Origin: Acidimicrobiia bacterium
GTDB taxonomy: Bacteria; Actinomycetota; Acidimicrobiia; Acidimicrobiales; Poriferisodalaceae
Direction: 5' to 3'
DNA: 64,000 bases
Assembly: GCA_012960315.1 (NCBI GenBank)
Contig: DUBN01000072.1
Span: 1 to 64,000 of the forward strand
This document shows, piece after piece, positions 34,040 to 42,688 of the stretch (the stretch's first letter is position 1; each line of letters starts with the position of its first letter). The notes under the pieces are model-generated. The model did not search any database, had not been told where the DNA came from, and saw only the letters and a program-made list of their open reading frames with translations. The position numbers and the translations under genes are program-made.

Positions 34040-34888
34040 GTGTGGCCAATCAACCGTAGTTATCAAGCATCGAGTTTCGATCCGGGACGCGGACCGGTTT
34101 GGGATTGGGGCCACCGCACGTATGTCATGGGGATCGTCAACGCTACTCACGATTCTTTTTCAGGTGATGGCATTGATGGCCAAATCGATAAAGCCGTGCT
34201 GTTAGCCACCGAGTTTGAGGCCTGTGGTGTCGACGTGATCGATATTGGGGGTGCGTCGTCGCGTCCCGGTGCTGAACCAACACCTGTTGCTGTGGAAAAA
34301 TCTCGGGTTGTTCCGGTAATTGAAGCGGTGCGCGACGCGGTAAATCTACCCATATCGATCGACACGACCTGGGCGGTCGTCGCAGAGGCCGCGTTAGACG
34401 CGGGAGCCACGGTGGTTAACGACATCACTGGTTTCCTCCTAGATCCCGATCTTTCGTCGCTCGTGTCTCAGCGCGGAGTGGGCGCCGTGGTGATGCACAA
34501 CCAGCGAGGGCGGGAGCATCGCGATGTGATCGATGACATCGTTGCTGGTTTCGATGAAACTCTCGCTGTATGTGAGTCCGCGCGGATTGAGCTATCAAAT
34601 TTGATTTTGGACCCGGGCTTTGGTTTCGGATGGTCAGTTGAGCAGAATTTGGAAATATTGCGTCGGCTACCAGAACTGACCCGATTTGAGTTTCCGCTGC
34701 TCATCGGCACGTCGCGAAAGTCATCTATTGGCACTGTGTTAGGCAGCGATATCGGGGAACGATTGTTCGGCACAGCGGCAAGTGTCGCTCTAGCAATTTG
34801 TGGGGGCATCGACGTGGTCCGAGTTCACGATGGGGCCGAAATGCGTGATGTTGTAATGATGACGGACGCGATTGTGCGATCCAACTGA
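34040..34888 (+). CDS. folP: dihydropteroate synthase family protein
   Basis: A 282-residue TIM-barrel protein of the DHPS family, starting at GTG 34040. Many active-site elements are kept: VMGIVNATHDSFS (usual NVTPDSF), DVIDIGG, SIDTTWA, VVNDITG, LIGTSRKSS and RVHDG. Two loops differ from the norm: TPDSF reads THDSF (His37) and GGESTRPG reads GGASSRPG (71-77). It may be a normal DHPS with a drifted loop or a FolP2-like paralogue without DHPS activity. It is not in the folB/folK cluster at 40 kb. Confidence 0.85.
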   Translation: MWPINRSYQASSFDPGRGPVWDWGHRTYVMGIVNATHDSFSGDGIDGQIDKAVLLATEFEACGVDVIDIGGASSRPGAEPTPVAVEKSRVVPVIEAVRDAVNLPISIDTTWAVVAEAALDAGATVVNDITGFLLDPDLSSLVSQRGVGAVVMHNQRGREHRDVIDDIVAGFDETLAVCESARIELSNLILDPGFGFGWSVEQNLEILRRLPELTRFEFPLLIGTSRKSSIGTVLGSDIGERLFGTAASVALAICGGIDVVRVHDGAEMRDVVMMTDAIVRSN

Positions 34889-39745: not shown

Positions 39746-40216
39746 TTAGCAGCAAAGCAGGTCGCCGACCTGCACGATCACCTGGTCTGTAACTGTTTCT
39801 CGCCACAGTGGGGGCACTAACTCGGGCGCTAAGTCGGCTAGTGGGAAGAGGACGAAGGCTCTTTCGTTCATTCGCGGATGCGGAATCGTTAATTCTGGGT
39901 CGTTGAGTTCTAGGTCGCCGTACAGCAGAACATCAACGTCGAGGGTCCGCGGGCCCCAACGTTCTTTGCGGACACGTCCGGCCGATGTCTCAAGTTGTTG
40001 GCAAATGGTGAGAAGGTCGTAGGGGCTTACGGAGGTCTGAATTTCAACCACCATGTTGAGAAATGCCCCTTGGGACGGCCCACCAATTGGCGCTGTTTCA
40101 TATAGCCCTGAGACAGCGTGCTTGTCGGGGATGTCTCGCACTGCTCTCGTCAAGATTTCTCTACGGTCACCTAGGTTGGATCCCAGACCTATAAAACTTC
40201 TTACGGTTTGGGACAT
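39746..40216 (-). CDS. folK: 2-amino-4-hydroxy-6-hydroxymethyldihydropteridine pyrophosphokinase
   Basis: A 156-residue HPPK. GLGSNLGDRREIL at the N-terminus and RWGPRTLDVDVLLYGDLELNDPELTIPHPRMNERAFVLFPLADLAP are its signatures, the latter binding ATP and two magnesium ions. It makes the pterin pyrophosphate for dihydropteroate synthase in folate synthesis. It follows folB by 7 bases. Confidence 0.95.
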   Translation of the reverse strand: MSQTVRSFIGLGSNLGDRREILTRAVRDIPDKHAVSGLYETAPIGGPSQGAFLNMVVEIQTSVSPYDLLTICQQLETSAGRVRKERWGPRTLDVDVLLYGDLELNDPELTIPHPRMNERAFVLFPLADLAPELVPPLWRETVTDQVIVQVGDLLCC

Positions 40217-40223
40217 TTCGCCC

Positions 40224-40607
40224 TCATGTTCGTTGACGGTGACGGGTCACTCGAACAGCGCTGAAATTTAGGTCCGATGGCACCGGCGGGCGAATCTTCT
40301 TAACGGTCACTTCCACCGTTGAGACACCATCAAGTTCGAGCAGACGTTCTGCTACGAGTTGCGCTAGGCGTTCGAGGAGTTGGACCTTCGCCTCGAGGCA
40401 TATTTCTTCAATCGTTTGAGCCACCGATCCATAATCAACCGTGTCTTGTAAGTCGTCGGAATCACCGGCTGCTGACAGGTCGGAGTAGATATCGATATCG
40501 AGTTCCAACGGCTGAGCTCGCTCGCGTTCTTCTGGCAGGACACCCACGACGCACACGACGCGCAGGCCGCGTAGTTGGATGCAATCACTATTGCTCGGTT
40601 GTGTCAC
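40224..40607 (-). CDS. folB: dihydroneopterin aldolase
   Basis: A 127-residue FolB. IQLRGLRVVCVVGVLPEERERAQPLELDIDIYSDL is the family start with the pterin-binding Glu; DTVDYGSVAQTI and LLERLAQLVAERLL follow. It converts dihydroneopterin to the hydroxymethyl pterin used by FolK. It is directly followed by folK, and preceded by the phosphatase-like gene with a 2-base gap. Confidence 0.95.
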   Translation of the reverse strand: MTQPSNSDCIQLRGLRVVCVVGVLPEERERAQPLELDIDIYSDLSAAGDSDDLQDTVDYGSVAQTIEEICLEAKVQLLERLAQLVAERLLELDGVSTVEVTVKKIRPPVPSDLNFSAVRVTRHRQRT

Positions 40608-40609
40608 TG

Positions 40610-41125
40610 CTATGTGGTCTCCTGTTCAGGTTCCATACCGATCGCTATTTCAACTAGTTCCCGACCGTGCGGTCCTAGTCGTTGCTGGAAGATACGTTCG
40701 GCTATCGCTGTGACTTGGGGTCCGGTGGGAACAAGACCAGCCCACAACAAGTAAGCCGCCATCAACCCACACACGCGTTCTCCAACTAGTTCCTTGTGAA
40801 CGACAACTTTTTGGCCGGCCGATATAGCGCTGCGGATCTCGGTAAAGATGGCTTCCATGAATTGAGCAAGCTGGTCATGTGCAGGCCAGGGCCGATGCCT
40901 GAATGGCATGCCAAGTTCTTCATAATTGTGGAGGTTGTGTGATCCCGCAATGAGTGAATAGAGGACGTCGAATTCGTTTTGGCGAATCCAAATGATTTCT
41001 TCTTGGCGGCGAACACGCCGGTGGTGTTCGCCATAGCCCCCTGGACGCTCACAGATAGCGAGGGAGTCCTTGATCACCCAGACAAAGTTTTTGGGCTCAA
41101 TACCTTCTGCCCATTTTGCCTTCAC
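40610..41125 (-). CDS. dual-specificity-phosphatase-fold protein without catalytic cysteine
   Basis: A 171-residue protein with the look of a tyrosine/dual-specificity phosphatase: NFVWVIKDSLAICERPGG, then FDVLYSLIAGSHN, then KVVVHKELVGERVCGLMAAYLLW. In active enzymes the last block is H-C-x5-R; here it is H110-K111-x5-R117, so the nucleophilic Cys is Lys (AAG at 40793-40795). It could be a pseudophosphatase that binds a ligand or partner. It sits two bases before folB, which suggests an unknown link to folate synthesis. I cannot name a function. Confidence 0.72.
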   Translation of the reverse strand: MKAKWAEGIEPKNFVWVIKDSLAICERPGGYGEHHRRVRRQEEIIWIRQNEFDVLYSLIAGSHNLHNYEELGMPFRHRPWPAHDQLAQFMEAIFTEIRSAISAGQKVVVHKELVGERVCGLMAAYLLWAGLVPTGPQVTAIAERIFQQRLGPHGRELVEIAIGMEPEQETT

Positions 41126-41216: not shown

Positions 41217-41780
41217 TCAGGAGTTAGCTGATCTGTCGTACGCCCAAATATCGCGAAGGTTCCGGTAACGCTGGCCTACATCGAGTCCATATCCCACGAC
41301 CCACACCTGGGGAAGTCGAAATCCTGCGTATTTGACAAGGCCATCTAGGTCGGCCTGCTGCTCCTCTCGGACCAAAAGAGAGCAGAATTCCAAACTTGCC
41401 GGGTTCCTCGCTAAAAGGGTTTTTCTGAGGTATCGCAAAGTTAAACCGCTATCAACGATGTCTTCCACGATGATCACATCTCGGCCTTCGATGTCATCAT
41501 CGAGGTCCTTTATGATTCGAACCACGCCACTAGTGCGGGTAGAGCTTCCGTAGGAGGACACCGCCATGAAGTCGAGTTCGACGGGAAGGTCGATGGCACG
41601 GGCGAGGTCAGTGGTAAAGATGGCCCCGCCTTTAAGTACACCGATCAGCAAGGGGATTCGTCCGGCGTAGTCGTTCGCGATCTCTTGACCCAGTTGCTGG
41701 ACCCGAGCGCTGATTTCGGCGTGGCTTACAAGAATTTCGCTGAGGGCGGGGTCGGGGTGTAAGGCGCTCTGATCCGTCAC
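41217..41780 (-). CDS. hpt: hypoxanthine phosphoribosyltransferase
   Basis: A 187-residue purine salvage enzyme. VIIVEDIVDSGLTLRYLRKTL is the PRPP-binding motif, LIGVLKGGAIFTTDLARAI and MAVSSYGSSTRTSGVVRI flank the purine site. It makes IMP or GMP from bases. The start is GTG. It follows tilS with an 11-base gap, the classic tilS-hpt order. Confidence 0.96.
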   Translation of the reverse strand: MTDQSALHPDPALSEILVSHAEISARVQQLGQEIANDYAGRIPLLIGVLKGGAIFTTDLARAIDLPVELDFMAVSSYGSSTRTSGVVRIIKDLDDDIEGRDVIIVEDIVDSGLTLRYLRKTLLARNPASLEFCSLLVREEQQADLDGLVKYAGFRLPQVWVVGYGLDVGQRYRNLRDIWAYDRSANS

Positions 41781-41791
41781 AAGGTCGGAAC

Positions 41792-42688
41792 CTAGCCGGT
41801 ATCTCGAACTTTGCTACGCCCTTTAGGCAAGGTTTCGATTCTTAAGGTGCCACCGGTTCGTCGTACAGACCGACCGCCGTTTAACTCGGTGCCGAGAATC
41901 TCTCCCCGAGCGACTTCAAGAACTCGCTCAACGGAGGCAAAGTCGGGAGGGTGTTCATCTCGGAGCCACCTTCGGATTGCGCGGCGGGCCAATGGAAGTG
42001 GCGCTGCTATCAGGGAAGCGGCGTCCGTGGGGTCAATCTCTTCTGCAAGTTCGTCAAGCAAGTCGCGGTCGTTTTCTGCAACTTTCCCGGCGCGAGTCAG
42101 CAACGGAACCACGTCTCGGTCGGTGATCTCATTTAGGAGGGGTATGACTTCGTTCCGAACTCGATTTCGTCGAAATCGCGGATCGGCGTTGGTCGGATCA
42201 TTCACGGGCTCCCAACCGAACAGGTCGCATATTCGTTCGGTATCTGCGCGTCGAAGAGAGAGAAGTGGGTGGTGTTTTGGCCGCATACCGGCGGACGCAT
42301 CAAGACCTCCTCCTCGAAGGAGGTGCAGCAAGATCGTTTCCGCTTGGTCGTCAGCTGTGTGTCCGGTGAGAATCGTTTGAGGTAGCGCTGCAAATCGTGC
42401 TGATCGGGCGCGAGCTTCAAAGTTAGGTCCATCTTTCAGCTCGAGGGTCAGGGCTTCGAACCCCGCGTTAACTCGGTCGGAAAGCTCTGACACTCGGTCG
42501 CGTTCCGCTGAACCGTTTGGTCGGACCCCATGGTCAACGTGATACGCGATGACCCGCGATCCGGTCAATGAGGCAAGAATCAAAAGAGCTGAGGAATCCG
42601 CACCACCGGAGACAGCGCAATGCAGTATGCCGCTAGAGGGGAAGGTGCAATCTTGGAGGAATGCATCGATCTGATCGAGATCTGCCAT
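41792..42688 (-). CDS. tilS: tRNA(Ile)-lysidine synthase
   Basis: A 298-residue PP-loop ATPase that modifies the CAU anticodon of tRNA-Ile2. The PP-loop is AVSGGADSSALLILA near residue 25, and AYHVDHGVRPNG and TGHTADDQAETILLHLLRGGG are diagnostic. The shorter form lacks the C-terminal domains of the E. coli enzyme, as in other actinobacteria. It lies between the DUF2342 protease and hpt. Confidence 0.94.
   Translation of the reverse strand: MADLDQIDAFLQDCTFPSSGILHCAVSGGADSSALLILASLTGSRVIAYHVDHGVRPNGSAERDRVSELSDRVNAGFEALTLELKDGPNFEARARSARFAALPQTILTGHTADDQAETILLHLLRGGGLDASAGMRPKHHPLLSLRRADTERICDLFGWEPVNDPTNADPRFRRNRVRNEVIPLLNEITDRDVVPLLTRAGKVAENDRDLLDELAEEIDPTDAASLIAAPLPLARRAIRRWLRDEHPPDFASVERVLEVARGEILGTELNGGRSVRRTGGTLRIETLPKGRSKVRDTG

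Follow-up and report, generated by a model that had tools for sequence, protein, structure and literature searches.

Why should a protein with the layout of a dual-specificity phosphatase (DSP), but with lysine in place of the catalytic cysteine, be encoded directly ahead of the folate gene folB? The question arises from a 64,000-nucleotide stretch of an Acidimicrobiia genome (contig DUBN01000072.1; ‘the window’), in which a preliminary description had read the gene, here called X, as a conserved dead phosphatase, probably co-translated with folate genes and possibly a binder of a phosphorylated pterin or a regulator. The last base of the X stop codon is 40610 and the first base of folB is 40607, leaving a two-base gap as first described, and folK starts 7 bases past the end of folB (Table 1). 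Upstream lie an hpt-like gene and a gene that we take to be tilS-like. In the genome to which the window belongs, FolB and HPPK are encoded inside the window and FolE on a different contig. A strong Pterin_bind (folP-like) match occurs at 34127–34828 on the forward strand, opposite to and approximately 5 kb from folK; in 30/73 loci of named relatives, unlike the window, folP is directly upstream of X.

Table 1. Positions in the window of X, its features and its immediate neighbours.
Feature	Position	Strand	Basis
Protein X (DSP-fold pseudophosphatase)	40610..41125	-	ORF of 171 aa, GTG start
Arginine loop of X, residues 27–41, R-P-G-G-Y-G-E-H-H-R-R-V-R-R-Q	41003..41047	-	model and alignment
Degenerate P-loop of X, residues 110–117, H-K-E-L-V-G-E-R	40775..40798	-	codons read
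Lys111 codon of X, at the catalytic Cys position	40793..40795	-	codons read
folB, dihydroneopterin aldolase	40224..40607	-	PF02152, E 1.3e-30
folK, HPPK	39746..40216	-	PF01288, E 6.9e-40
hpt-like phosphoribosyltransferase, upstream of X	41217..41780	-	PF00156, E 2.1e-22
tilS-like gene (presumed), upstream of X	41792..42688	-	named from its sequence

Predicted fold of X

Taken as a single sequence X is weakly assigned: DSPc (Pfam PF00782) scored 15.1 bits (E 0.021) and did not reach its gathering cut-off of 33.5, and the sole NCBIfam match had E 0.067. Among the 39 homologues making up a profile (A1), seven matched DSPc at E≤1 (best 0.011). The assignment becomes firm with the profile match and the predicted structure. 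Profile A1 matched PDB 25xa (‘dual specificity protein phosphatase family protein’) at E 9.4e-10, and an AlphaFold model made from the window protein together with 63 homologues (pLDDT 91, pTM 0.87) had human VHZ/DUSP23 as its top solved structure (2img, Z 17.8, rmsd 2.3, 145 residues), with a second VHZ structure close behind (4erc, Z 17.5, rmsd 2.4, 145 residues); the two matches span residues 7/8–166 of the model. Foldseek placed the model against the same human protein at E 4.7e-8. The match extends across the whole domain of solved DSPs, and the DSP layout first claimed for X is thus borne out, the comparison of a predicted structure with DSP folds, suggested at the outset, having returned a VHZ-like protein.

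Loss of the active site

VHZ, an atypical DSP, is an active phosphatase with Asp65 and Glu134 as general acids, as stated in a passage of PMC9038691. Among solved folds it comes closest to X, but in X the catalytic Cys, a conserved Arg in the P-loop and the aligned acid are absent, and an arginine loop is present. The extent of the loss could be read from 206 profile matches, which gave 152 distinct sequences (151 from the class and one from f105, a family of a different class within the phylum) once duplicates had been merged and rows with >40 gaps dropped. In the window, the codons confirm H-K-x5-R where H-C-x5-R would be expected. His110 is found in 151/151 class sequences, and position 111 holds R in 39, G in 31, K in 27, A in 17, Q in 14, N in 8 and other residues in the remainder, which places it 140th when the 160 positions are ordered by conservation. 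Lys111, the conservation of which had been put forward as a check, is therefore not conserved, and as a catalytic or otherwise important residue it was rejected, since the position varies freely. Cys occurs at position 111 in 2/151 class sequences, and also in four relatives outside the class, all of them without a full CX5R; intact CX5R was found in 0/151, and HCX5R, by which an active Cys-based phosphatase is recognised, was absent from all 151 distinct class sequences. Cys-bearing homologues, the obvious challenge to a ‘dead’ reading, hence leave that reading standing.

Other parts of the site have gone as well. Arg117 of the P-loop is present in 96/151 sequences and absent in 55/151, Gly115 is absent in 55/151, and Ser/Thr occurs at position 118 in 2/151. 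Position 82, aligned by phmmer with the general-acid Asp of 25xa, is Asp in 1/151 and Glu in 3/151; position 84, near the aligned site, is Asp/Glu in 111/151, making a displaced general acid possible. With inactivating substitutions kept under selection (see below), X fits the definition of a DSP-fold pseudophosphatase.

The degenerate P-loop is acidic. Asp/Glu is found at position 112 in 146/151 sequences and at position 116 in 149/151, both positions being acidic in 144/151; the mean net charge of residues 111–117 is −1.8, and Gly120 is retained in 150/151. The old site is in this respect more conserved than an idle scaffold requires, and one could suppose a Cys-independent enzyme, some other hydrolase or transferase rebuilt on the DSP fold from His110, the acidic 112/116, the arginine loop and perhaps a metal. 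The residues named, together with Glu43 (151/151), Gly120 and the acid at 84, would suit such an enzyme, and there is precedent in pseudoenzymes with migrated catalytic residues (described in part of PMC10211241). The residue after His110 varies, however, and Arg117 is far from universal. Retention of His110 may also be structural, since proteins of the DSP fold commonly keep the histidine of HC for that reason. An enzyme of this kind is, on balance, unlikely.

The acidic P-loop also bears on a second alternative, that X is a STYX-like phospho-reader, the dead pocket of which would bind a phosphorylated protein in competition with kinases or phosphatases. Eukaryotic STYX shares with X the DSP fold and the loss of the catalytic Cys, human STYX (2r0b) matches the model with Z 13.9 and rmsd 2.7 over 142 aa, and the mode of action is one known for pseudophosphatases (PMC10211241, in part). 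STYX, as the same passages have it, reverts to activity by a single change, whereas in X the loss is on a greater scale: Cys, the aligned acid, Ser/Thr118 and, in 55/151 sequences, Arg are gone, and X has the arginine loop. A pocket with acid at two positions in 144/151 sequences, and with Arg117 and Gly115 each missing from 55/151, is less likely to read phosphate, and we regard a STYX-like role as very unlikely.

Spread and selection

Orthologues of X were found in 93/99 relatives, from genus to order level, and in 276/296 of the Acidimicrobiia genomes sampled, nearly always as one match each; homologues include Aquihabitans sp. G128 and the marine actinobacterium MedAcidi-G3. A phylum-wide profile search matched 43/396 genomes, made up of 37 Acidimicrobiia and six genomes of family f105 (profile E 2e-12 to 6e-24), and G070 was the only class member among the misses listed. 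Re-searching with the profile found X in four genomes of ~1 Mb (G102, G108, G113 and G120). The dN/dS of X, computable for four of seven relatives tried (L082, L083, L091 and L105), was about 0.04–0.14; X is under purifying selection. What had been proposed as a conserved, catalytically dead protein is indeed both, and its best reading is as a vertically inherited core protein of class Acidimicrobiia. Two other origins were considered: a pseudogene is ruled out by dN/dS and the 151 distinct homologous sequences, and for a phage or mobile element, viral contigs gave 37 pattern matches, 0 of which were confirmed as relatives.

Twenty class genomes gave no match to X, seven of them belonging to family f65 with completeness of 70–88%. 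G123 (99% complete) is also without X, but its contig starts beside folP (L231), so that a gap is possible and loss of X not sure; G188 (95% complete) has no X match and carries folB, folK and folE in a different order.

A near-universal pseudophosphatase in a bacterial class, streamlined genomes of ~1 Mb included, is a strong candidate for a core function. To our knowledge, pseudophosphatases have been described mostly from eukaryotes. A description of the X family was not found in those parts of the literature matches that were viewed; a 2018 search for class-specific signature proteins of Acidimicrobiia took the A. ferrooxidans proteome as its query (according to a passage of PMC5962788).

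Four loci with X are titled as other organisms (L114, Thermoanaerobacterales; L120, Acidobacteria; L135, Ferrithrix thermotolerans; L154, Bifidobacterium breve). These are probably mislabelled MAGs, since X and an Acidimicrobiia-like cluster misfit the titles.

Gene neighbourhood

In the class, X belongs to a co-directional cluster, tilS – hpt – (ftsH – folE – folP) – X – folB – folK – DUF2520 – (panD, nadC) – coaX – lysS, some members of which are missing from many genomes; the BLAST-based labels of folK and DUF2520 in L183–L187 are uncertain and were left out. Among named relatives searched by tblastn, folB lay downstream on the same strand and within ~1.1 kb of the start of X in 62/75 informative loci (80 minus five with <1.1 kb of downstream sequence); the idea that X always precedes folB thus holds for most loci, not all. 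In the other 13 loci, folK came next in L104, L113, L118 and L122, and lysS in L124. Where the distance was measured by ORF, X and folB were ≤20 bp apart or overlapping in 45/46 loci, the overlaps being overstated because ORFs were taken from the first start codon. The ORF-based count of folB was lower (46/68 loci), early starts having probably carried some ORFs beyond the distance limits. Co-transcription of X with folB is probable.

Linkage this tight speaks for a folate role, in which X would bind or process dihydroneopterin tri- or monophosphate, a phosphorylated pterin, at a step before FolB, although further members of the old cluster also neighbour X. As of 2007, most genomes lacked the gene for DHNTP pyrophosphatase, and a non-specific phosphatase was presumed to take off the last phosphate (both in passages of PMC1971073). 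Against it, X is kept at eight loci of named relatives where an adjacent folate gene was not found. At seven of these tilS lies 18–69 bp upstream of X, and at the eighth there is too little upstream sequence to tell; tilS, the commonest upstream partner, was within 7 kb upstream of X in 48/52 loci with enough flank. The best reading of the X–folB linkage is that it reflects the gene order of an old actinobacterial cluster, not membership of a pathway.

X and folate genes occur independently

Thirty-four genomes are without FolB; from the 20 of these that were listed, 12 with X were tested, G147 and G201 (with X, 77–88% complete) being left out. HPPK was undetected in 9/12 and FolE in 10/12, and in seven (G105, G126, G134, G217, G243, G281 and G368; completeness 93–99%) FolB, HPPK and FolE were all undetected with X present. 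One of these, G243, is 99% complete and consists of one contig of 4,968,626 bases. As controls, the FolB, HPPK and FolE searches matched 10, 11 and 11, respectively, of 14 well-known genomes. The converse arrangement is found in family f33, where all three folate proteins were present in 4/4 genomes and X in 0/4 by single-sequence and profile search. This family keeps tilS-hpt-folE-folP without X, and in its loci (L226–L229) the folP and folB matches lie ~115–230 bp apart in three, folB being unplaced there in the fourth. Absence of FolE is weak evidence taken singly, as G044 and G122 keep FolB and HPPK with PF01227 undetected, and the argument for folate independence therefore rests on the genomes without all three and on f33.

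X and the folate pathway accordingly do not track each other phylogenetically: seven genomes have X with FolB, HPPK and FolE undetected, and the four of f33 have these folate genes without X. This double dissociation largely refutes a role in handling phosphorylated pterins; the suggestion, made when the locus was first described, is not supported, was rejected as the main explanation and is now highly improbable. That X is kept where folate genes have been lost means that its job is probably not folate, and the case stands as a warning against inferring function from position in conserved clusters. De novo folate synthesis has probably been lost in some Acidimicrobiia, the seven genomes above being examples.

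The arginine loop

Outside the old active site, the family shares a loop with consensus E-R-P-G-G-x4-H-R-x-x-R-R. Arg36, Arg39 and Arg40 are each present in 150/150 class sequences with a residue there, Glu43 and Trp46 in 151/151, and Glu26, Arg27 and His35 each in 146/150. Four sequences from ~1-Mb genomes are without Arg27 and His35 and still have Arg36, Arg39 and Arg40. The mean net charge of residues 27–41 is +4.5. In the model the loop lies, by DSSP, between a strand (22–26) and a helix (40–49); within the interior of the model, confidence is lowest in block 31–40 (pLDDT 77). By model position and charge X thus has a basic β2–α1 loop of the PTEN type. In PTEN, pβ2–pα1 (residues 35–49) is the ‘arginine loop’, a positive patch that contributes to membrane binding, as a passage of PMC4700475 puts it. 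The likeness lies in a positive loop that occupies an equivalent position in the fold, from strand β2 to helix α1; PTEN differs in having an active site and a C2 domain, whereas X consists of a single bare domain and has no Cys-based catalysis.

We tentatively favour, as plausible though short of probable, the view that X is a folate-independent pseudophosphatase which uses its arginine loop to bind an anionic ligand or a membrane surface. A VHZ-like DSP fold would have lost Cys-based catalysis and been retained as a binding protein, and the loop H35-R36-x-x-R39-R40 would now be the working site, binding an anionic ligand or surface. More speculatively, that surface could be acidic membrane phospholipid. 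A fuller version, in which the P-loop turned acidic and expendable while the arginine-rich β2–α1 loop came to read anionic membrane lipid or polyphosphate, is doubtful as it stands. If true, it would make X the founder of a bacterial family and give a near-universal Acidimicrobiia core gene a function undescribed in bacteria.

The phospholipid idea derives from the PTEN analogy and from a scramblase-like gene that directly neighbours X in some loci without adjacent folate genes. Among 100 loci of named and other relatives (a genome may occur twice), this gene was found 15–70 bp downstream of X in nine, all without adjacent folate genes (L123, L135, L138, L143, L145, L155, L193, L195 and L196). 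The homology cluster to which it belongs, present near or farther from X in 28/100 loci in all, matched PF03803 in 6/6 members scanned (two from the nine loci), five of them also matching DUF2510. In L192 and L194, of the same lineage, the scramblase-like gene is not directly after X. On this footing a membrane lipid might be weakly preferred to RNA or a polyphosphorylated metabolite as the ligand.

Arginine-rich loops bind RNA and proteins too, which counts against the favoured reading, as do the restriction of the immediate scramblase-like neighbour to nine loci and the thioesterase-like neighbour of relatives outside the class. Also against it are the missing Arg27 and His35 in the four sequences noted above, the missing Arg39 in the f105 relative L078, the lower model confidence of block 31–40 and the possible displaced acid at position 84. 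An RNA- or tRNA-associated protein, with the basic loop contacting tRNA or rRNA together with TilS, would account both for the loop charge and for tilS upstream of X, including at the seven loci without adjacent folate genes where it is the close neighbour. Yet tilS stays in the old cluster with or without X, as f33 illustrates, and in L200 and L201, outside the class, neither tilS nor fol genes were found within 10–15 kb around the X relative. An RNA- or tRNA-associated role of this kind is quite unlikely.

The f105 relatives come from a different class of the same phylum. A thioesterase-like gene lies within ~1.1 kb of the X relative in L078, L079, L080, L081 and L201, and in the two of the five genomes that were scanned it matches 4HBT_2. 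The f105 proteins keep the DSP layout and the E-R-P-G...H-R motif, Arg39 being missing from L078. They differ from X in reading H-C-D-x-x-x-E-W at the P-loop (L078, L079, L080 and L201; the motif of L081 was unreadable and was left out of the count), with Cys kept and the Arg of the P-loop replaced by Trp. Since the motif and Cys occur together in this family, the arginine-loop motif seems, from the aligned sequences, to predate the loss of Cys.
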